Below are positions 3,761-55,092 of a stretch of 64,000 bases of DNA, piece by piece. Below the pieces are notes generated by a model. The model searched no databases and was not told the DNA's origin. It saw nothing but the letters and a program-made list of their open reading frames with translations. The stretch spans positions 573,131 to 637,130 of the forward strand of contig JAOSJT010000001.1 in the NCBI GenBank assembly GCA_027493955.1. The letters run 5' to 3'. How positions within the stretch are numbered: position 1 is the stretch's first letter; each line of letters begins with the position of its first letter. The position numbers were made by a program, and so were the translations under genes. Source of the stretch: Bacteroidia bacterium (GTDB taxonomy: Bacteria; Bacteroidota; Ignavibacteria; SZUA-365).

Positions 3761-6184
3761 TTATTTCATAAACGTCATGCTGCGGGTGAGTACCGTGTTT
3801 CCGCTGCGGAGCGTCAGGATGTAGGTACCGGCTGTCAAGCCGTCGGCATGGAAGGACATGCTGTGCCTGCCGCGATCAAACTCACCGTCCGCGAGCCGTG
3901 CAACTTCACGGCCTAGCAGATCATTGACCGTGAGAATGACGTTTTCGCGCTGCGGGAGATCGAAACTGACCATGGTTGACGGGTTGAAGGGATTCGGATA
4001 ATTCTGATGCAGCGTCAGCGAAGCTTCGCCCGGCAGCCGTTTGCTGTCGAGAATGAAGTCGCCGAGTTCCGCCTCCGTGGACTGAAGGATTTCACCGAAG
4101 GTGACACCGTCGGAGTGATGCGCGTAAATGATGAAGCGGCTGGTTTCCACGGTCGAGTCAACGGAAGTGAAGTTGAACGTTTTCGTGACACGCGTCTGCG
4201 AGCGCACCGTCGCTCCACCGCTGATGACTTCTCCGGCATCGCTCGGGATCACCTGCCGCATCACATGATTGTGGAAATAGGGGAACAACCTGGTTGAGCC
4301 ACCCTCCGGCGGATAGAACACCTGCGTGTAATTCATCTGATCCTGTACCTGTGCGATATTCAGACGGACAGGGATGGCGAGGTCGCGGTGGAACAGTACC
4401 TCCACGGTGATACTTGTCCTTTTACTGACGGGATCGTAGGTCTTCGCCAGCACATTCAGGCTGATCGGGCTGCGCCTGGTTTGCAGCACCTCGGTAATGG
4501 ACGAATTCCAGAGTGAGCGGCTGATTGCGGGGGCCGACTGTCCTTTGAACACGATGCGGTTTACAGAACCCTGTGGCCAACCCGTGAGCTTGATGATACC
4601 CGTCCAGAAACCTGTGGAAACAGTCTGCATGGGCTCGGTGGCACTGCCGCCGTGATACGCGATACCATGCACGCGGCCGGGGAAGCGCTCGATCATGGCT
4701 TTCAGGCTGTCGGCGCCGTAGGGACAGAAACCGCACCAGGTTCCGGTTCCTTCTTCCATCAATACGTTCTGCTCCGCATCAACATCCTCGTCCTGCACAT
4801 GCAACGTGAGTGAGAGATCCGTGGAAGGCCGAATCGGATCGTTGGTCGTGACGGTGATTTTCCCCTGATGCACACCGTTGCCGGAGGAGGAATTCAACAC
4901 CGCGGCAATATTGGCAACCTCACCGGGTGGCACACTTCCGGACGCCGTGGCGAGCGACATCCAGCTTCCGGCGGGTTCGACAACCGTCGCTTCCCAGGTC
5001 AGCGGCGCACTGCCATTGTTGCGGATCGGAAGATTCTGTTCGACGCTTCCGCCGTTTTTGAGCCAGACGTCAAAACTGGTGGTGGCGAAGTGTGCGAGCG
5101 GACCGCCCGCGGCATTGACATTGAGGATTTCCACAGCGGCGGTGACTCCGCTCGGCTGGTGATTTCCGCCGATCATGTACAATTTGTCCGTTCCGTCGAA
5201 AATCAACTGACTGGCGAAGTATACGGGAGTCGGTTTCTGATCCATCATGATCCAGGTGTCCTGTGCCGGATCATACGCGTATGTTTTACCTGACGGAGGA
5301 CCATTGTTCTGACTGGCCGCGTTGTAGCCGCCGCTAAAGTACATCTTGCTGCCGTCCGAACCCGCGGAGAAGCGCATGACAGAGCCATCGGGATAGTTGG
5401 CGATCTGTGTCCAGGTAATGTCGTCGCCACTGATCGCTCCCTTGTACGCCCAGGCCCCGTACAAACCTTGTCCGTTGGTATAGCGCACGCCGCCAACGAA
5501 TAACACGGTGTTGCCGACTACGGCGACGCCCTGCGCCCAGGCGGTGTAAGGCGTGAGAGAGCTGGATGTCGTCCAGCGGTCCGTTGCGGGATCGTAGATC
5601 TGGATGACGGTGGAGGAGGTGGTGAAAGCGGTCGTCCCGCCGCCGAGGACCCAGATGCGTCCGTTATGGACGAATGAACCCCCACCGTACACCGGCGTGG
5701 GCATATTGGATTTCGTTGTATAGGTGTTCGCGACGGGATCATACTCCAGCACGGACGGCTGTACGGTGAAGGGACTCGTGGAGCTGTAGCCGCCGATGAG
5801 GTAGATTTTTCCGTTTACGGTCTGTACCGCCGGAAGCGCGCGTTGTAAGGGTAAAGCGGCGATGGCGCTCCATAGGCCGCTGGCGGCATCCAGCTTGTAG
5901 CATTTCAGGTCGTAGCGTAAGTCGGCGCCGAGACCGCCAAACACGTACAGGTGTCCGTCATGCCACGCGGCACCTTCATAGCACTTGGCTGACAGCAGAG
6001 CGGGTCCGGTGGTCCATTGTCCTGCCGTACCGGCAAGTGAAGCGGGGACCTGCGAACCGGTTTTCATGATGTCAGCGAAGACGGGATGATCTTCGACGGC
6101 GTCGATGGTTTGCCCGCGCACCGGGCTTATCAGTGCGGAGAGAATAACACAGGCGAACAGCGTCCTCAGTAAACGTCGATGCAT
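3761..6184 (-). CDS. Secreted kelch-repeat / Omp28-like thioredoxin-fold protein with T9SS sorting domain
   Basis: An 807-aa exported protein with signal peptide (about 1-25, ending SPVRGQ). Five or six kelch-type blades (about 50-350) contain repeated YxFGG/YLIGG turns. A HYDIN/ASPM-like beta-sandwich (about 360-465) follows. Next comes an Omp28-related region with a thioredoxin-like GTWCGFCPYG motif near residue 480. The end is a C-terminal Por secretion domain with YPNPFNPSTMVSF and a final FMK. Such proteins cross the outer membrane by the type IX system and are anchored or released at the surface. The kelch propeller may bind ligand and the CxxC could be redox-active; the substrate is unknown. 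Monocistronic, with a promoter at 6309-6339. Confidence 0.88.
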   Translation of the reverse strand: MHRRLLRTLFACVILSALISPVRGQTIDAVEDHPVFADIMKTGSQVPASLAGTAGQWTTGPALLSAKCYEGAAWHDGHLYVFGGLGADLRYDLKCYKLDAASGLWSAIAALPLQRALPAVQTVNGKIYLIGGYSSTSPFTVQPSVLEYDPVANTYTTKSNMPTPVYGGGSFVHNGRIWVLGGGTTAFTTSSTVIQIYDPATDRWTTSSSLTPYTAWAQGVAVVGNTVLFVGGVRYTNGQGLYGAWAYKGAISGDDITWTQIANYPDGSVMRFSAGSDGSKMYFSGGYNAASQNNGPPSGKTYAYDPAQDTWIMMDQKPTPVYFASQLIFDGTDKLYMIGGNHQPSGVTAAVEILNVNAAGGPLAHFATTSFDVWLKNGGSVEQNLPIRNNGSAPLTWEATVVEPAGSWMSLATASGSVPPGEVANIAAVLNSSSGNGVHQGKITVTTNDPIRPSTDLSLTLHVQDEDVDAEQNVLMEEGTGTWCGFCPYGADSLKAMIERFPGRVHGIAYHGGSATEPMQTVSTGFWTGIIKLTGWPQGSVNRIVFKGQSAPAISRSLWNSSITEVLQTRRSPISLNVLAKTYDPVSKRTSITVEVLFHRDLAIPVRLNIAQVQDQMNYTQVFYPPEGGSTRLFPYFHNHVMRQVIPSDAGEVISGGATVRSQTRVTKTFNFTSVDSTVETSRFIIYAHHSDGVTFGEILQSTEAELGDFILDSKRLPGEASLTLHQNYPNPFNPSTMVSFDLPQRENVILTVNDLLGREVARLADGEFDRGRHSMSFHADGLTAGTYILTLRSGNTVLTRSMTFMK

Positions 6185-7759: not shown

Positions 7760-8596
7760 TCAACCCTTGACGCTTCCGAGTGTGAGTCCGCTGACGAGCC
7801 AGCGGCTGAGTATGAGGTAGAGAATAATCGCGGGAATGCTCACCACCAATGCTCCCGCCGCATACAACCCCCATTCGGTACTCATGTTCGACTGGAACAT
7901 TTTCAGCCCGATCGGGAGAGTGAACATATCTTCGTAGTACAATACCTGAGCCGCGACAACATACTCCGTCCACGCAGCCATGAAAGAGAACAGCGCGGTG
8001 ATCACCAGGGCCGGAGTGGCCAGCGGGAGTATTACACGGTAAAACGCTCCGAAACGTCCGAGGCCGTCAATGCGCGCCGCTTCCTCCAGACTGACAGGAA
8101 TCGTGTCGTAGTAGCCCTTCATCTGCCAGATACAGAATGGCAGAGCGGTGGAACTGTACATCACGATCAATCCGAGAAAATTGTTGATGAGGTTCAGCTT
8201 CGCGAGCATGATATACAACGGCAGAAGCAGCATGGTCGCGGGAAACATTTGCGTGATCAGCAAGCCGAGCATCCCGGCTCGTCGGCCGGGAAATCGGTAG
8301 CGCGAAAATGCGTATCCGGCGGTCGAAGCCAGTGCGACACCTGTGAGCACAACCACCATGGTGACGAAGAAGCTGTTCCAGACCCAGGTGAGAAATGGTC
8401 TGTCCGTGAACAGCGCAATGTAATTGTCCCATGTCGCATCCTCCGGAATGATAGCGAGCGATCCGCTCAACAGTGTCGCCTGCGGCCGTAACGATATGCT
8501 GAGCACCTGCACGATCGGGTAGATCGCGATGGCGGTGAACAACAACACCATAACATAGACGAATCCTCTGAAAAGAGGAGAATCCTTGCCGCGCAT
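7760..8596 (-). CDS. malG: Sugar ABC transporter permease, MalG type
   Basis: A 278-aa inner-membrane permease of the CUT1 family. It has six hydrophobic segments and the cytoplasmic EAA loop at residues 172-191 (EAARIDGLGRFGAFYRVILP) that contacts the ATPase. The N-terminal half contains the usual YAFSRYRFPGRR loop. Its start codon overlaps the stop of the upstream binding-protein/permease fusion by one base (TGATG), indicating translational coupling, so the two form the transmembrane pair of one importer. No MalK-type ATPase is encoded nearby; it would have to come from elsewhere, as with shared ATPases of other CUT1 systems. Substrate is probably a maltodextrin-like or other oligosaccharide, but this is not fixed by sequence. 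Confidence 0.93.
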   Translation of the reverse strand: MRGKDSPLFRGFVYVMVLLFTAIAIYPIVQVLSISLRPQATLLSGSLAIIPEDATWDNYIALFTDRPFLTWVWNSFFVTMVVVLTGVALASTAGYAFSRYRFPGRRAGMLGLLITQMFPATMLLLPLYIMLAKLNLINNFLGLIVMYSSTALPFCIWQMKGYYDTIPVSLEEAARIDGLGRFGAFYRVILPLATPALVITALFSFMAAWTEYVVAAQVLYYEDMFTLPIGLKMFQSNMSTEWGLYAAGALVVSIPAIILYLILSRWLVSGLTLGSVKG

Positions 8597-10911
8597 CAGT
8601 ACACCGTCTCCGTTGCGGATGTTTTACGCATGAAGAGCAAACTCCACATTGCGAGGAGCACGAAAATCACAACACTGAACGCTGCCGCGTACCCGTAACG
8701 GTAAAGATTGAACGCCGCGCGATACACATAGCTGACGAGAATATGCGTTTGATCCGCCGGTTGCCCGCCATTCGAAACCAGCCACACAACATTGATGTTG
8801 TTGAACGTCCACACGATTCCCAGCGTGATAGCCGGGATCATCACGGGCTTCAGCAGAGGCAGTGTAACGTGCACGAAGCGTCTCCAGGCCGAAGCGCCGT
8901 CAATTTCCGCCGCTTCATACAATTCGCGCGGTATGGACTGCAAGCCGCCCAGGGCGATGATCATCATGAACGGAAATCCCAGCCACACATTGGTGATTAT
9001 GGCCGCCACGAAGGCCAGCGTCGCGTCCGTCAGCCACGGCAGCGGGGCGATGGAGAAGAGGGATCCGAGGATGGCGTTGATTGCGCCACTGTCGGTGTTG
9101 AACATGCCGCGCCAGGTCAGCGCGGTGATGTACTGCGGCACCGCCCAGGGGAGAATGAGCAAAATGCGAAACAGGGATTTTCCGGGTAAATGACGGTTGA
9201 GCAGCACCGCGAGAAACACGCCGATCACCACGTGCAGCGTCACGTTGACCACTGTCCACACAATGGTTTTGATAAAAACGCTGTAAAACTCCGTTGAAAA
9301 CATCGCGCCCAGGGCCGCGGCAATACCGGCACCGCCGGTCCACACATCCAGAAACCGATCGATGCCGAACACCCGACCGTACTGCTGGAATCCGATGATG
9401 CCCCAGGTGTCCACCGTGCGCATGCTCATGTTGGAAAACGAGATCACGAGATTGTAGAAAAAGGGATACACCACGACGCCGAACATCAGCACCGATGCGG
9501 GAAGCACGAGCAGCAGGCCGAAACGCGCATCCGCCCGGCTCCGTCCTCCTCCCTGGAAAAGAGGAAGTACACCGTTGCGGATTAGAAAGAACAGCGCTAC
9601 CAGACCGGCAAGCACGGCTATGCCCTGAAACGCGACGGCGACGGCGGGATCGCTCCGGTCTTCGTCGGCGCCTTCGTTCATTTCGCGAATTTTCTGTTCG
9701 GCGAGGCGCTGCTGCTCGCGTGCGGCAGCCGCGGCGCTGAGGTCTCCGCCGAGGACGCTCTGGTAGGCCGGACGCATGGCATCCCACACGGCACGCATCT
9801 CCGGAACGAGTGGGGAGGCCTTTCCGATGCGCACCTGCTCTATGGAAACTCGAATGATGGGATCATCGAGAACACGCGGATCCCGCTGCGCGGCGAGCGT
9901 GGAAGGGATGGTCTTCAGACGCTGTGAAAAGATGACCTGGGTTTCCGGTGAAAGTATAAAACGAAGGAAAATACGCACCGCCTCGAGTGTCTCACCCTTG
10001 ACCGAACGATTCACGAAGTATCCTTTCGTCGTTACCATGGGCGCTGCAGCTACACCGCTCATCTCCTGAACCGGCAGGAGGTCGAGAACGAAATCATCGC
10101 CGAGTTTGTCCACATACCGGCCCCAGGCCCAGGGTCCGTTGATGATCATCGCCGCGCGGCCTTCGAGGAATTGCGTCTCCGCGATTTCGTAATCACTCTC
10201 GCGCGGAATGATGCGATGGCGGTCGCGGAGATCCTTCACAAAATTGAATGCGTCCACCGCGGCGGAATTATTCAGCGTGGGACGATTGTCTGCGTCCAGT
10301 ACCCAGCCGCCGAAAGCGGTATAGAAGGGCATGAAGAAGAAGGGTTCCGTATAATTCCAGACCAGTCCGTACTGATCGATCACCCCGTCTCCATCGGTAT
10401 CCCGTGTCAGTTTCTTTCCGTACTCGATCAGTTCCGCAAAGGTGCGCGGAGCCCGTGTGAGTCCCGCCTGCCGGAACAGGGTGCGGTTCCAGCCCATCGC
10501 GAGGTGGTTACCGATCTCGTCACCGATCTGATAGAGCTTTCCCCGATAGCGCGTGACAGCTTTCTCGTCGAAGCCGCGAAGCTCCGCCGCTGTAAAGAGA
10601 TCGTCGAGCGGCCGGATAATCCCCATGGATTCGAAGGCGCCGACATAGTCGCTTGGGCCGTACACCAGCTCCGGACCACCACCGGTAAACGCCGCCGCAG
10701 CCTGATAGGAGGAGCGCAACTCCTCGGTTTCGCGGAACAGCTCGTTCACGCGAATATGCGGATGGCGGCGATGGAATTCCGCAATACGCTCCGCCAGCAC
10801 TTTCCGCGCCTCCGGCCGCATTTGCGTCCATATATGCAACTGAACCTGAGCCCGCGCGAGCGTCGCAGCCGTAAGGAGCAGGATGGCGGTGAGCAGGAAG
10901 CGGGCGCGCAT
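8596..10911 (-). CDS. Fused sugar-binding protein and MalF-type permease (MalE-MalF fusion)
   Basis: A 771-aa single-chain importer component. Residues 1-22 form a signal peptide or first membrane segment. Residues 24-412 are a CUT1 extracellular solute-binding domain (IWTQMRPEARKVL, DGDGVIDQYGL, NGPWAWGRY, and the helical YFVNRSVK to LSPETQ part). A transmembrane helix follows at about 425-446. A MalF-like permease runs from about 462, with the EAA loop at 665-689 (YEAAEIDGASAWRRFVHVTL). No frameshift is needed: the frame is continuous. The start at 10911 is chosen because the preceding 31 in-frame codons are read from heptamer repeats. The tethered binding domain implies no free periplasmic pool. 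Coupled to malG through TGATG. Confidence 0.9.
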   Translation of the reverse strand: MRARFLLTAILLLTAATLARAQVQLHIWTQMRPEARKVLAERIAEFHRRHPHIRVNELFRETEELRSSYQAAAAFTGGGPELVYGPSDYVGAFESMGIIRPLDDLFTAAELRGFDEKAVTRYRGKLYQIGDEIGNHLAMGWNRTLFRQAGLTRAPRTFAELIEYGKKLTRDTDGDGVIDQYGLVWNYTEPFFFMPFYTAFGGWVLDADNRPTLNNSAAVDAFNFVKDLRDRHRIIPRESDYEIAETQFLEGRAAMIINGPWAWGRYVDKLGDDFVLDLLPVQEMSGVAAAPMVTTKGYFVNRSVKGETLEAVRIFLRFILSPETQVIFSQRLKTIPSTLAAQRDPRVLDDPIIRVSIEQVRIGKASPLVPEMRAVWDAMRPAYQSVLGGDLSAAAAAREQQRLAEQKIREMNEGADEDRSDPAVAVAFQGIAVLAGLVALFFLIRNGVLPLFQGGGRSRADARFGLLLVLPASVLMFGVVVYPFFYNLVISFSNMSMRTVDTWGIIGFQQYGRVFGIDRFLDVWTGGAGIAAALGAMFSTEFYSVFIKTIVWTVVNVTLHVVIGVFLAVLLNRHLPGKSLFRILLILPWAVPQYITALTWRGMFNTDSGAINAILGSLFSIAPLPWLTDATLAFVAAIITNVWLGFPFMMIIALGGLQSIPRELYEAAEIDGASAWRRFVHVTLPLLKPVMIPAITLGIVWTFNNINVVWLVSNGGQPADQTHILVSYVYRAAFNLYRYGYAAAFSVVIFVLLAMWSLLFMRKTSATETVY

Positions 10912-10918
10912 GGTAATT

Positions 10919-11064
10919 AGTGAAGGGTAAAGGGTGAAGGGTAAAGGGTGAAGGGTAAAGGGTGAAGAGTGAAGAGTGAAGAGTGAAGAGCAAGAGTGCT
11001 GCACGCACTGATCTCTACGAGCAGGAGCCCCTTTACTCTTTACCCTTCACCCTTTACCCGTTAC
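10919..11064. repeat. Large heptamer array pair (unit RGTRAAG) between the oxoglutarate dehydrogenase and sugar-transport genes
   Basis: The left arm 10919-10988 is ten consecutive heptamers of the form (A/G)GT(A/G)AAG without a single indel. The right arm 11031-11058 is four heptamers in inverse orientation (CTTTACT, CTTTACC, CTTCACC, CTTTACC), followed by a degenerate CGTTAC. Spacer is 42 bases. A 22-bp perfect stem can form between 10925-10946 and 11038-11059, with an alternative register one repeat pair further on. The stop codon of the oxoglutarate dehydrogenase gene lies in the degenerate sixth unit (11061-11063), and the start of the fusion permease is 8 bases from the other end. Confidence 0.92.
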
Positions 11065-14000
11065 ATAAACGCCTCTTCCACGAGCCGTTTCTGTTCGATC
11101 TCGTGTAAGGTGCCGCTACCGGACGCCGGGCTGCCGCTGTGGACACGTCCGACGAAGGAAAGATGGTAGGGGGGCTGCAACGCTTCGCGCAGTTTGCCGA
11201 GCACGAAATTCCAGGCGCCCATGTTTTGCGGCTCTTCCTGCACCCATCGAATGTCCCGCGCCTGATGATAGCGCTTGAACACTTGCCAGAGATCGTCGTA
11301 CGGGAAGGGATACAATTGCTCAACGCGCACGATCGCCGTGTCGGTGATGCCCTGGGCCTTTCGGTGCGCCATGAGATCGAACGCCACCTTGCCCGTACAG
11401 AGCAATACCCGTCGCACGTCGGCAGGTGCGTCGGGATCGTCGAAGACGAAGCGGAAGCCACCGTCCGTGAATTCGTGCAGCGGACTTTTCGCCACCTCGG
11501 CACGCAGCAGACTCTTCGGCGTCAACACAATCAATGGCTTACGCTCCGACAACAGCGCCTGGCGGCGCAGCAGGTGGAAGAGCTGCGAGGAGGTGGTCGG
11601 GGAAGCGATGCGCATATTGTTCTCGGCGGATAAAATGAGGAAACGCTCGAGCCGCGCACTGGAGTGCTCGGGACCCTGCCCTTCGTAGCCGTGCGGGAGC
11701 AGCAGCACAAGTCCGCTGCGCTGTCCCCACTTGTCCTCCGCCGCGGTGATGAACTGATCAGTGATGATTTGCGCACCGTTGACGAAATCCCCGAACTGTG
11801 CTTCCCAGATCACCAACGCTTCCGGACGCACCACGGAATAGCCGTACTCGAAACCGAGAACCGCATACTCGGAGAGAAGACTGTCGTACGGCATGAATTT
11901 TTCCTGTCCGGCGCGAATGTGATTCAGCGGTATGTAGGAGTTCGCCGTCTGATTATCGACGAGCACGGAGTGGCGGTGACTGAATGTGCCGCGCCGGGAA
12001 TCCTGTCCGGAAAGCCGTATCGGTATTCCCTCGATGAGAACGGAACCGAAAGCGAACGCCTCACCGGTTGCCCAATCCACGGGAGCACCGCTGTCCAGCA
12101 ATCCGATGCGGCTCTCGATCAGCCGGCGCAGCTTCGGATGCGGCTGGAAATCTTCGGGAAAGGTTGTCAGCGCATGCAGAATTTCATCGAGCGTTTCACG
12201 CGGCACCTTGGTTTCGATACGCTCGCCGATATCTTCCTGAATAACGCGGAAGACATGGTCCATGTCGATCTCGGGAGGAGCGATTTCACGGGTGATGTCG
12301 AAGGCGCGTTCTATTGACTTGTGGAAATACTCCAAGGCGTCCTCGGCTTCGCGCACGGTGATATCGCCGCGGTTGACCAGGGCTTCGGTGTACACTTTGC
12401 GGATGGAACGCTTGTTCTTGATTTTCGAATACATCAATGGCTGCGTGTAGGAAGGATCGTCACCTTCGTTGTGGCCATGTCTGCGATAGCCGATCAGATC
12501 CACCACCACGTCCTTGTGAAAAGCGTTGCGGAAGGCCAGCGCCAGCTCGATGACATGCACGGCAGCTTCGGGATCCTCGCCGTTGACATGGAAAATCGGA
12601 GCCTGCACCATTTTGGCGACATCCGTGGCATAGACGCTGGAGCGTGCGTCGGCAGGGGACGTGGTGAAGCCGATGCCATTGTTGGTGATGATATGCACGG
12701 TGCCGCCGGTGCGATACCCCTGCAACATGCTGAGATTGAAGGTTTCAGCGACGACACCCTGCCCGGCGAACGCGGCATCTCCGTGAATCAGTACGGGGAG
12801 AACGCTCTGCCTCTCGCTGTCGCGTTTCATATCCTGCATCGCGCGTGCAATGCCTTCCACCACCGGATCCACGGCCTCGAGATGACTCGGATTGCTCGCG
12901 AGGGTGACCTGCAGTTGCGTTCCGTCGAAACCGGTGTACGTACCGGTTGCGCCCATGTGATATTTCACATCGCCGGAACCCTGCATGGAATCGGGATCGA
13001 GATCGCCGTCGAATTCCGAAAAAATCTTCTCGAAGCTTTTCCCGAAAATGTTCGCCAGCACGTTCAACCGTCCCCGATGCGCCATCCCGACCACTACATC
13101 CGAAATACCGGAAGAGACGGCCTCGTTCAGCAATCCGTCCAGCACCGGGATCAGCGTTTCCAGCCCCTCCAGACTGAAGCGTTTGTGCCCGATATATTTT
13201 GTGTGCAGGAATTTCTCGAAGGCCTCGGCGGCGCTCAACATCCCGAGGATGCGGAGTTTCTTGCTCGTATCCATCCACGACGAACGCGGACGTCCCTCCA
13301 CCTGTCCCTGTATCCAGCGTTTCTGCTCGGGATCCTGAATGTGCATATACTCGATGCCGATGGTGCGGCAGTAGGTGTCGCGTAACAGTTCCATGATATC
13401 CCGCAGCTTCATGCGCTGCCGTCCCGCGAAGCCGAGCGTAATGAACTCGCGGTCGTAGTCCCAGAGCGATACACCGTAATTCTCCGGATCCAATTCCGAG
13501 TGCTGTTCCACCTCGTTGCTGAGGGGATTGAGATACGCCTGCAAATGCCCGCGCACGCGGTACATGTTAATGAGTTGCTGGACGCGGGCCTGCTTCTCGA
13601 TCATGCCGTCGTTGCTGCCCGTTCCTCCGAACGCCGGGTTGATGTCCCGTGTCAACCTGATGGGTGGATAGGGAATGTGCAGCGTTTCGAATATCTCTTC
13701 GTAGAAGCCATTCTCGCCCGTGAGCAACTTGTCGAGGGTGTCGAGAAACATGCCGCTTTCCGCTCCCTGTATCACCCTATGATCGTAGGTGCTCGTCACC
13801 GTCATGCTCTTGCTGATCCCGAGCATGGCCAGGGTGCGGGGATCGGCATTCTTGAATTCCGGCGGCCATGAAATCGAGCCGATGCCGACAATCACGCTCT
13901 GCCCCTGCATGAGCCGTGGGATGGAGAACGCAGTGCCAATCATTCCCGGGTTGGTCAACGTGGCATTGGTGCCCACGAAATCGTCAGGCGAAATCGAATT

Positions 14001-14651
14001 GGTGTTTACCTTGCGCAGGAGTTCATTGTACGCGGCGAAGAATCCCGCAAAATCGTATTGTTCCGCCGCTTTGATATTAGGCACGAGCAGACTCCGCGTC
14101 CCATCCTTCTTCTGGATGTCCACGGCAATACCGAGGTTGATATGCTCCGGTGTCACTTTGTAATGCTCGCCTTCATGATACGCATAGAGGGTGCTCATGG
14201 CGGGCATGGAACGCAGGGCCTTCAGAATGGCCCAGGCGATGAGATGCGTGAAGCTGACGCGGCCGCTCACCATATCCTCGAGGTAGCGGTTGATGAGACG
14301 GCGGTTTTCCTCCAGAAGCTTCACAGGTATGACGCGCGACGAGGTCGCCGTCGGCATACTCAGACTCTTCTCCATGTTGCTGACGATAATTTCAGCGGGA
14401 CCCCGCAGCTTCTGGGCTCCCGTGGGGAGTTCCACCGCAGGTTTTCCGGCTGGAGGGGCAGCGGGAGTGGCAGCTTCAGGCGCGACGGCTGCAGAGCTCT
14501 CGTGAAAAGTGGTGGGGGAGTAGTCGGCGAAAAAATCTCTCCAATGCTCGCCCACCGATGCGGGATCTTGCCTGAACTGTCTGTACATTTCGTCGATCAG
14601 CCAGGTGTTGGGACCGTAGACCAGGGATTTGTCTATACCGTTGTCAGCCAT
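11061..14651 (-). CDS. kgd: Multifunctional 2-oxoglutarate dehydrogenase E1 with fused E2 acyltransferase domain
   Basis: A 1196-aa enzyme of the TCA cycle joining an E2-type succinyltransferase domain (about 85-315) to a thiamine-diphosphate E1 (about 355-1196). The N-terminus (LIDEMYRQFRQDPASVGEHWRDFF) is the E1 arm that binds E2 in ordinary SucA. A Pro/Ala linker follows, then the acyltransferase core ending with the STYDHRVIQGAESG signature (D290-H291). No lipoyl domain is fused, so a separate lipoylated E2 is needed. The E1 part has the GDAAFAGQGVV...NNGIGFTT diphosphate site and the SHLEAVDPVVEG histidine region. This layout is best known from actinobacterial Kgd/OdhA. It oxidatively decarboxylates 2-oxoglutarate, and the family can also act as a decarboxylase or carboligase. 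Stop codon touches the heptamer array. Confidence 0.96.
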   Translation of the reverse strand: MADNGIDKSLVYGPNTWLIDEMYRQFRQDPASVGEHWRDFFADYSPTTFHESSAAVAPEAATPAAPPAGKPAVELPTGAQKLRGPAEIIVSNMEKSLSMPTATSSRVIPVKLLEENRRLINRYLEDMVSGRVSFTHLIAWAILKALRSMPAMSTLYAYHEGEHYKVTPEHINLGIAVDIQKKDGTRSLLVPNIKAAEQYDFAGFFAAYNELLRKVNTNSISPDDFVGTNATLTNPGMIGTAFSIPRLMQGQSVIVGIGSISWPPEFKNADPRTLAMLGISKSMTVTSTYDHRVIQGAESGMFLDTLDKLLTGENGFYEEIFETLHIPYPPIRLTRDINPAFGGTGSNDGMIEKQARVQQLINMYRVRGHLQAYLNPLSNEVEQHSELDPENYGVSLWDYDREFITLGFAGRQRMKLRDIMELLRDTYCRTIGIEYMHIQDPEQKRWIQGQVEGRPRSSWMDTSKKLRILGMLSAAEAFEKFLHTKYIGHKRFSLEGLETLIPVLDGLLNEAVSSGISDVVVGMAHRGRLNVLANIFGKSFEKIFSEFDGDLDPDSMQGSGDVKYHMGATGTYTGFDGTQLQVTLASNPSHLEAVDPVVEGIARAMQDMKRDSERQSVLPVLIHGDAAFAGQGVVAETFNLSMLQGYRTGGTVHIITNNGIGFTTSPADARSSVYATDVAKMVQAPIFHVNGEDPEAAVHVIELALAFRNAFHKDVVVDLIGYRRHGHNEGDDPSYTQPLMYSKIKNKRSIRKVYTEALVNRGDITVREAEDALEYFHKSIERAFDITREIAPPEIDMDHVFRVIQEDIGERIETKVPRETLDEILHALTTFPEDFQPHPKLRRLIESRIGLLDSGAPVDWATGEAFAFGSVLIEGIPIRLSGQDSRRGTFSHRHSVLVDNQTANSYIPLNHIRAGQEKFMPYDSLLSEYAVLGFEYGYSVVRPEALVIWEAQFGDFVNGAQIITDQFITAAEDKWGQRSGLVLLLPHGYEGQGPEHSSARLERFLILSAENNMRIASPTTSSQLFHLLRRQALLSERKPLIVLTPKSLLRAEVAKSPLHEFTDGGFRFVFDDPDAPADVRRVLLCTGKVAFDLMAHRKAQGITDTAIVRVEQLYPFPYDDLWQVFKRYHQARDIRWVQEEPQNMGAWNFVLGKLREALQPPYHLSFVGRVHSGSPASGSGTLHEIEQKRLVEEAFM

Positions 14652-15858: not shown

Positions 15859-15996
15859 GAAGTGCGAATTGCGTAATGCGTAGCGCGGAGATCGTAACAC
15901 AGGCTGTTCGAAAATCCGTGCATCTGGTCCTGACTTTCGAACTGCACGCGCTCCGCGCTACGCGCTCCGCGCTTCGCGCTCCGCGCTACGCGCTCC
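15859..15996. repeat. Heptamer array pair (units GTARYGC / GCGCTMC) at the end of hoxH
   Basis: The left arm 15859-15890 is four degenerate heptamers (GAAGTGC, GAATTGC, GTAATGC, GTAGCGC). The right arm 15948-15996 is seven consecutive heptamers alternating GCGCTCC, GCGCTAC and one GCGCTTC. A 13-bp perfect stem forms between 15878-15890 and 15951-15963; the spacer between arms is 57 bases. The hoxH stop codon (complement of 15986-15988) is the TAG inside a GTAGCGC unit, so the last three codons of hoxH are themselves repeat sequence. Confidence 0.9.
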
Positions 15997-17440
15997 GCCG
16001 TGTGAATGATCTGAACACGGTCCCGCCTGCGTCCACATACGAGATCACCATGGGCATGCGGCCAAGGGCGTGGGTGGAGCAGGAGAGGCAAGGATCGAAG
16101 CAGCGTATGCCGGCCTCTATGCGGTTGAGAATGCCCTCGGTGATTTCCATTTCCGGGTCGTTGATGTAATGCATCGCGATTTGCCGGATGGCGCGGTTCA
16201 TCGAAAGATTATTCTGACCGGTGGCGATGACCATATCCACATGGCGGATGACACCGTCCTTGCCCGCGGTGTAATTGTGAAAGAGAGTCCCGCGCGGCGC
16301 CTCGCATGCACCCACGCCCTGGGCCTTGTTGGAATAGGCGCGTGAGCGAAGGTCGGTCTCGTGAAGCGTGTCGGGATCAGTGAGCAACTCTTCCATACGC
16401 TCCAGGGAGAAAAGTATTTCGATAAGACGCGCATAGTGGTAGTAGAAGGAATTCAGAACAACATTGCGCGTGCCTGCCCGCTGCTTGAATTCCACGAGTT
16501 CCTTGTCCGATTTCGGAGAACCGGTGTGTGAACAGACGTTCAAACGCGCGAGGGGACCCACGCGGTAATTCCCTTGCGGATACCCGAGCGGCGAGTAGTA
16601 CGGGAATTTCAGGAAGGACCAGTCCTCGACGGCTTCACCGATGTAATCGCGATACTTCTTGGGATTCAGCTTGTCCGCCACGATGTTACCGCCGCTGTCC
16701 ACGATGCGGATGACACCGTCGTAATACTCCAGCGCGCCGTCCTCGGTGACGTGACCGAGGAACAGGGTTGGGAAATTCCCGAACACCTCGAGCTTGCCGT
16801 GATTGGTCTCGATGAAGGCTTTGATGAAATCCAGTCCGGCCTTGGCCGCGATATGGGCCTCGGGAAGTCCCTCAAGTATGGCGTCGCGTGAAGAGATACT
16901 CAGTGCTCTTCGTACGCCGCCGGGGAGGGGAAGATCCGGGTGGATCTTGCGACCGCCGAGTTTTTCGATAGCGTCCTGGCCCCATTTCCGCAGACGTATG
17001 CCTTGCCGGGCGAGGTCGGGATTCTGCGCGGCCACACCGAAAATATTGCGACGCTCCGGATCAGCATCCATCCCGAGCAGAAGGTCGGGTAGCGAAAGAT
17101 GAAAGAAGCTGAGGGCGTGACTTTGTACCCACTGCGCGAGATTGAGCACACGACGCAGGTTTTCTGCGGTTTTCGGAATCTCCACCGCAAGAATGTCGTC
17201 GCCCGCCTTAGCCGAGGTCAGCGAATGACTCACCGGACAAATGCCGCAGATGCGTGAGGTGATGCCGGGCATTTCCCAGATTAAACGACCTTCGCAGAAT
17301 TTCTCGAAGCCGCGGAATTCCGTCACGTGAAAACGCGCGTCCTCCACTGTGCCCTGATCGTTGAAGTGAATGGTGATCTTTGCGTGACCCTCGATACGTG
17401 TCACGGGATCGATAACAATGCTGCGTATCGGCTTATCCAT
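15986..17440 (-). CDS. hoxH: NAD-reducing [NiFe] hydrogenase, large (catalytic) subunit HoxH
   Basis: A 484-aa catalytic subunit that binds the NiFe(CN)2CO centre. The N-terminal L1 motif is [11 protein letters not shown] (C65, C68) preceded by RIEGHAKI; the C-terminal L2 motif is [12 protein letters not shown] (C451, C454, H457). Both match the group 3d bidirectional enzymes. The 27 residues after H457 are the expected C-terminal extension removed by a maturation endopeptidase after metal insertion; no such protease or Hyp gene is in this window. The start at 17440 overlaps hoxY by 8 bases and begins [18 protein letters not shown], as in homologues. The end of the extension is encoded by a heptamer array. 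Acts in the cytoplasm as a dimer with HoxY. Confidence 0.96.
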
Positions 17441-45004: not shown

Positions 45005-45108
45005 GTTCAACGTTAAACGTTAAACGAAGAGTACATTGATATCCTTGTGATCCGTGCGGATTGACGAGGAATCCGGCGCCGTTTAACTTTTAACGTTTAA
45101 CGTTTAAC
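45005..45108. repeat. Heptamer array pair (unit GTTWAAC) at a convergent junction
   Basis: The left arm 45005-45025 is three heptamers (GTTCAAC, GTTAAAC, GTTAAAC). The right arm 45081-45108 is four (GTTTAAC, TTTTAAC, GTTTAAC, GTTTAAC). A 15-bp perfect stem forms between the arms across a spacer of about 55 bases. The stop codon of the minus-strand gene (complement of 45097-45099) is the TAA of a GTTAAAC unit, and the plus-strand stop ends 2 bases before the left arm. Confidence 0.92.
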
Positions 45109-55043: not shown

Positions 55044-55092
55044 AATCGTACATCGTACATCGTACATCGTACGTCGTGCATCGTCACTCGTT
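55044..55092. repeat. Heptamer array (unit CATCGTA), single arm
   Basis: Seven heptamers in a row (AATCGTA, then CATCGTA three times, CGTCGTG, CATCGTC, ACTCGTT) with no indels. No inverse arm is visible nearby, unlike the other arrays. The stop codon of the minus-strand lipoprotein gene (complement of 55084-55086) is at the join of the last two units, so the C-terminal residues of that protein are repeat-encoded. Confidence 0.88.

Follow-up and report, generated by a model that had tools for sequence, protein, structure and literature searches.

The element analysed here lies between two minus-strand genes of the window, by which is meant the whole 64-kb stretch of DNA that was examined. The upstream gene encodes a kgd/odhA-type (OdhA/Kgd) 2-oxoglutarate dehydrogenase with E2 acyltransferase and E1 domains, and the downstream gene a malEF-like fusion of a solute-binding protein and a permease; both identities, and the position of the element between two minus-strand genes, had been given in a preliminary description and were upheld. 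The gap between kgd and malEF is occupied almost entirely by the element: its right arm begins 2 bp past the stop codon of kgd (TAA, 11063-11061), and its left arm comes to 7 bp from the malEF ATG. Translation of malEF probably starts at this ATG (10911), as judged from a signal peptide and from equivalent starts in relatives. A longer ORF of 802 aa from 11004 (window 8596-11004) arises only because one strand of the array has no stops (LFTLHSSPFTLH...) and can be read through; automatic ORF calling would lengthen malEF in this way. Array read-through is likely a source of false N-termini in databases.

Both arms consist of the heptamer RGTRAAG (Table 1). The ten consecutive (A/G)GT(A/G)AAG units reported for the left arm were confirmed; they are indel-free, and their substitutions are A/G only, at unit positions 1 and 4. 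The inverse repeat claimed for the right arm was likewise present, reading CTTTACT CTTTACC CTTCACC CTTTACC with a partial unit that reaches 11064. The longest perfect pairing between the arms is 22 bp and exists in two registers shifted by 14 bp, since the units GGTGAAG and GGTAAAG follow each other in turn, giving a 14-mer. The earlier statements that the stem has at least two registers and that a hairpin would survive a change in copy number therefore both hold.

Table 1. Repeat features and flanking genes; positions are those of the window unless a site, contig or locus is named
Feature	Position	Strand	Remarks
Left arm	10919-10988	+	Ten perfect RGTRAAG heptamers
Core between the arms	10989-11030		Non-repeated, 42 bp
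Right arm	11031-11064	-	Four perfect units (11031-11058) and a partial unit; RGTRAAG in kgd sense
Predicted hairpin	10925-11059	-	22-bp stem, 11038-11059 paired to 10925-10946
kgd	11061-14651	-	2-oxoglutarate dehydrogenase, upstream gene
malEF-like fusion	8596-10911	-	Solute-binding protein and permease
GAGCGCG array	15947-15998	-	Unit on purine-rich strand; overlaps stop codon of minus-strand hydrogenase gene
TTAAACG array	45080-45108	-	Overlaps stop codon of minus-strand gene
GTACGAT array	55045-55084	-	Ends at stop codon of minus-strand gene
Facing pairs with multiple-of-7 spacing	10989-11030 (window); sites 1896133, 3684677, 4416157, 3162554		
Satellites with GTGTCGCCCTTCGGGCT/CCCCGGGCTGAAGCCCGGGG	G000:C1:1304309-1304748, 1310000-1310699, 1782762-1783409, 2163491-2163872		L133, L134, L139
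69-bp satellite	G000:C1:546164-546898, 988935-989134, 3085608-3085807		L129, L131, L181
Composite arrays	L195 (about 5462-5570), L182 (5770-5830), L138 (about 5680-5775)		

By pattern matching, the repeat is far more frequent than chance would give. Across the single 5.24-Mb contig of the genome, the three-unit RGTRAAG pattern was matched 327 times (191 forward, 136 reverse), and the same pattern read backwards, used as a control over the whole contig, 0 times. A sequence-model search of the genome returned 139 RGTRAAG array matches, and the number of sites was estimated at about 50-60 (53-58 by clustering of fetched stretches), where the clustering and the array statistics represent ~1 Mb of sampled stretches of the genome. 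The kgd-malEF element is one of these many dispersed sites and no locus-specific device. Arrays of period 7 were the main class (115) in 0.97 Mb of sampled sequence, followed by period 14 (21), period 8 (21) and periods 2-6 (3), although this sample is enriched for RGTRAAG sites, its loci having been picked partly around RGTRAAG arrays. In 0.44 Mb chosen regardless of the RGTRAAG family (the window plus nineteen 20-kb tiles), period 7 or 14 was found in 18 of 38 tandem arrays, with many unrelated units. Every tandem-repeat site detected by TRF in the 64-kb window was a heptamer. No arrays of period 7 or 14 were found in 180 kb from two family relatives.

The position of the arrays relative to genes was compared using gene boundaries from simple codon-score gene calls, and heptamers other than RGTRAAG were oriented by their purine-rich strand. 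Of 43 single-orientation RGTRAAG arrays, 32 had their 5' end closer to a gene than their 3' end (p = 0.002), and ends at most 50 bp from a gene were five-prime in 13 cases and three-prime in 1. The other heptamers behaved in the same way: the 5' end of the purine strand was the nearer one in 44 of 59 (p = 2e-4), with 22 five-prime ends and a single three-prime end at most 50 bp from a gene. When arrays were merged into clusters, 78 of 105 obeyed this polarity (p = 6e-7). Arrays overlapping gene ends were also left out, because stop codons inside an array could bias the gene calls; the remaining arrays had 28 five-prime and 3 three-prime ends within 50 bp, compared with 14.2 five-prime ends expected under uniform placement (p about 1e-4). 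The median distance to the stop was 8 bp where the purine strand was sense (n = 48) vs 204 bp where it was antisense (n = 62; p = 5e-10); for the start, the corresponding distances were 133 bp vs 560 bp, and only one three-prime end was located within 50 bp of a sense-direction start. The arrays are found, in both orientations, beside numerous unrelated genes. Where the two flanking genes are co-directional, the arrays may point either way (24 sense, 38 antisense). Nor did their orientation follow local GC skew, taken as a proxy for the replication strand (p = 1). The polarity therefore does not depend on the direction of transcription or, as far as this proxy shows, on that of replication. 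Mixed-orientation clusters were always '+ -' and never '- +' (8:0 strictly); two arrays in one gap face each other because of the polarity rule.

Against this background, a function of the hairpin was considered. Minus-strand RNA of the element was computed to fold at -61.9 kcal/mol, compared with -34.7 for shuffled sequences (z = -7.7), and all hairpin-type sites were in gaps bordered by one or more stop codons, the majority no more than 20 bp from the stop. A stem past the kgd stop could on these grounds protect or process the kgd mRNA, or lower read-through into malEF. However, no intrinsic terminator, which would need a T run behind a G+C-rich stem, was found at the element, where UUCACUAAUUACC follows the stem. 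The sole terminator site called was a 5-bp hairpin in the core, and shuffles gave similar calls (mean 0.5, sd 0.7). Comparison with Rfam gave no match above the gathering score; the sub-threshold matches, mostly microRNA precursors, are due to the long stem. In a re-pairing test with arms swapped between sites, 168 was observed vs 161.8 expected (p = 0.33), a result that is compatible with hairpin function, given that any two arms of the RGTRAAG family pair. Since arms within a site were no more complementary than swapped arms, the stem looks incidental, most simply a by-product of two facing repeats. The arms are thus not co-adapted, their inward arrangement already follows from the polarity of single arrays, and the inverted-pair pattern was absent from six other genomes carrying the unit. 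A regulatory 3'-end hairpin is accordingly regarded as unlikely, even though the hairpin may have effects at the RNA level. The spacing of facing arms was often a multiple of 7 (42, 42, 42, 63 and 119 in 5 of 12 facing pairs), with differing cores.

The preliminary description had further suggested that the element may determine if the dehydrogenase transcript also covers the transport genes. This has no support, given the missing terminator, a stem no better matched than that of swapped arms, the occurrence of arrays beside unrelated genes in either orientation and the gene order in relatives, although the element may still have some effect on transcription. In relatives of the same family, typA often follows kgd, and typA precedes malEF. 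In genomes G006 and G003, kgd and malEF are co-directional on one contig, 2.1 and 3.5 kb apart respectively, with typA immediately upstream of malEF. In the window's genome typA is located at 3.81 Mb, and the kgd-malEF gap holds the array alone. Judged from gene order, typA and not malEF was the ancestral neighbour of kgd, and the array therefore marks a rearranged junction. No arrays were found adjoining the new site of typA at 3.81 Mb.

RGTRAAG arrays were patchy across Bacteroidota, occurring in 14 of 395 sampled genomes, plus relatives. In three other Bacteroidota genomes, two of them of one genus, 40 of 47 arrays had a gene closer to their 5' than to their 3' end (p = 1e-6). Anchoring was strongest in genome G193, where 20 of 22 arrays start no more than 50 bp from a same-sense stop (median distance 6.5 bp). 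An intrinsic-terminator-like site was present at most 120 nt downstream in 11 of 23 G193 arrays vs 12 of 115 random windows, which places about half of the arrays of this genome inside 3' UTRs. At six G193 loci (L171, L259, L260, L262, L269 and L273) the arrays precede homologous segments made up of the terminator and shared sequence with CCTAGGCGCAGCCTAGG; this suggests either joint copying of array, terminator and neighbour or the presence of a multicopy gene beside the arrays. Because of this common downstream homology, the six loci are not fully independent.

The 3' UTR position of these G193 arrays, ahead of terminators, speaks for Rho-dependent termination, in which the left arm would be a rut-like site that insulates malEF and arrays elsewhere would block antisense transcription. 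In the kgd-to-malEF direction the RNA of the left arm is 70 nt long, C-rich and G-free (33 C, 27 U, 10 A, 0 G), and by composition it may resemble a rut site. The relation of the arrays to transcription is not fixed, however, both orientations being found in co-directional gaps, and termination by Rho is considered distinctly unlikely.

Several arrays have the gene's own stop inside their first units or at the array edge (offsets -1, -5, -12, -19), a pattern seen in several genomes. Each unit supplies a TGA or TAA in sense, three units provide stops in all frames, and the A/G change at unit position 4 preserves TAA/TGA, so the arrays might act as translational caps that seal gene ends. But the polarity holds equally for heptamers that lack in-frame stops (e.g. 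GAGAGCR), arrays also abut starts in antisense, and many arrays are located 2-50 bp past a stop that is intact, which makes a stop cap very unlikely. The left arm also contains six G3 tracts with 4-nt spacers, and such G3N4 repeats of the + strand could form a G-quadruplex acting on transcription or replication. This is highly improbable as an explanation of the arrays: the four G193 AGTGAAG arrays checked contain no G3 tracts, although anchoring is most pronounced in that genome, and many other heptamer families lack such tracts as well.

REP/BIME elements have a conserved palindromic unit, are associated with RAYT (Y1) transposases, are extragenic, often in 3' regions, and can form hairpins. 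RGTRAAG arrays are similarly extragenic, often in 3' regions, and able to form hairpins, but they have no conserved palindrome, their cores vary, and their distribution does not match that of Y1 transposase genes. The inverted arms, the extragenic position and one Y1 transposase gene in the window's genome would fit a mobile REP/BIME- or MITE-like element with terminal inverted arms; cores nevertheless differ across sites, arm length is variable, the array-rich genomes G193 and G027 are without Y1, and G003, G006 and G002 have Y1 without arrays. An element of this type is therefore given hardly any credence. Spread driven by RAYT, considered separately, was largely refuted by this failure of arrays and Y1 transposase genes to co-occur. 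No common mobile element was found around the arrays, the homology of their flanks being mostly to other repeats (or to the shared G193 segment).

We know of no accepted function or origin for heptamer repeats. The closest precedent is given by dispersed intergenic arrays of GGGNATC or GGGGAYT heptamers in Xanthomonas and Nostoc, in which the gene on the 5' side of the purine/G-rich strand is the nearer of the two neighbours, whichever way that gene runs: on the coding strand the arrays are found within 50 bp of stops, and on the non-coding strand within 50 bp of starts (Rehm et al., 2015; PMC4692102). These heptamers were linked to quadruplexes, no function was found, and inverted copies were possible (PMC4692102). 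RGTRAAG arrays are alike in forming tandem 7-bp units at many intergenic sites and, together with the other heptamers described here, in showing the same 5'-gene polarity; they differ in phylum and in unit (RGTRAAG, not GGGNATC or GGGGAYT with four G-tracts). A G4 motif is present in the left arm in the window but in none of the four G193 arrays checked. Here, several unrelated units of one genome, including units without G-tracts, obey the rule, so quadruplex formation is not needed. Gene-edge polarity is already known for GGGNATC-type heptamers (PMC4692102); its occurrence in another phylum, with unrelated units and in the absence of G-tracts, is added here, and removes the need for a quadruplex explanation.

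Direct repeats of the heptamer TAACTGA are patchy in Beggiatoaceae, Cyanobacteria and some Bacteroidetes; their length differences in one strain pair are mostly 7-nt steps, a role in rearrangement was suggested, and in Maribeggiatoa most of them are forward-oriented and found shortly ahead of start codons (MacGregor, 2015; PMC4679880). RGTRAAG arrays are likewise dispersed and patchy, but differ in unit and are placed after stops, or before starts in antisense. As cited in PMC4679880, phylogenetically scattered genomes are rich in 5-11-nt repeats, for which polymerase slippage was proposed, and heptamers are the most abundant class in most such genomes (Mrazek et al., 2007). The preference for heptamers is shared with these long simple sequence repeats, whereas gene-edge polarity is outside the description given of them in PMC4679880. 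A literature search for the letters of the RGTRAAG unit found nothing.

Taken together, the element is probably two facing copies of a genome-wide intergenic RGTRAAG repeat, with the hairpin as a by-product, in which arrays would slip and grow directionally up to gene limits. Template switching or replication slippage in 7-nt steps would create the arrays and alter their length, and they would persist only in sequence that is free to change. Growth or movement would be directional, the 5' edge halting where functional sequence sets a limit, a few bp past a stop or about 100 bp ahead of a start. In a gap bounded by two genes both arrays would then point inward and could pair. Between kgd and malEF, the array would have replaced typA and the old intergenic DNA and would act as filler that is, or can be, transcribed; if malEF expression were affected at all, this would be secondary. 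In this way polarity accounts for facing arrays and hairpins without invoking regulation, and the distance to the stop by strand is a simple quantity that can be applied to any annotated genome.

Several points count against this explanation of slippage and directional growth. The polarity rule is predicted by neither slippage nor tolerance alone, and the recurrence of RGTRAAG in distant Bacteroidota points to transfer or to a process that is sequence-specific. Degenerate units, used as a marker of the old vs the young end of an array, were on no consistent side, which leaves the direction of growth undemonstrated. A previously undescribed DNA-level process, largely blind to the letters of the unit and operating in several bacterial phyla, might make heptamer arrays that are seeded at gene boundaries or pushed against them, purine-strand 5' end first and especially at stops; this we hold to be rather unlikely.

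Some RGTRAAG sites of the genome are longer satellites with heptamer blocks (periods of ~50, 69, 116, 125 and 200 bp). Higher-order satellites have, between their heptamer blocks, a conserved GTGTCGCCCTTCGGGCT hairpin segment and palindromes such as CCCCGGGCTGAAGCCCGGGG. The 69-bp satellite consists of four heptamers and a 41-bp core (GCCGGGACGTCTTGTGGTTTTGAC-like), and related, diverged cores occur at distant sites. In composite arrays one heptamer family turns into another with the 7-bp step kept, for example from AGTAAAG through AGTAAGG to AATCGTG-like units.
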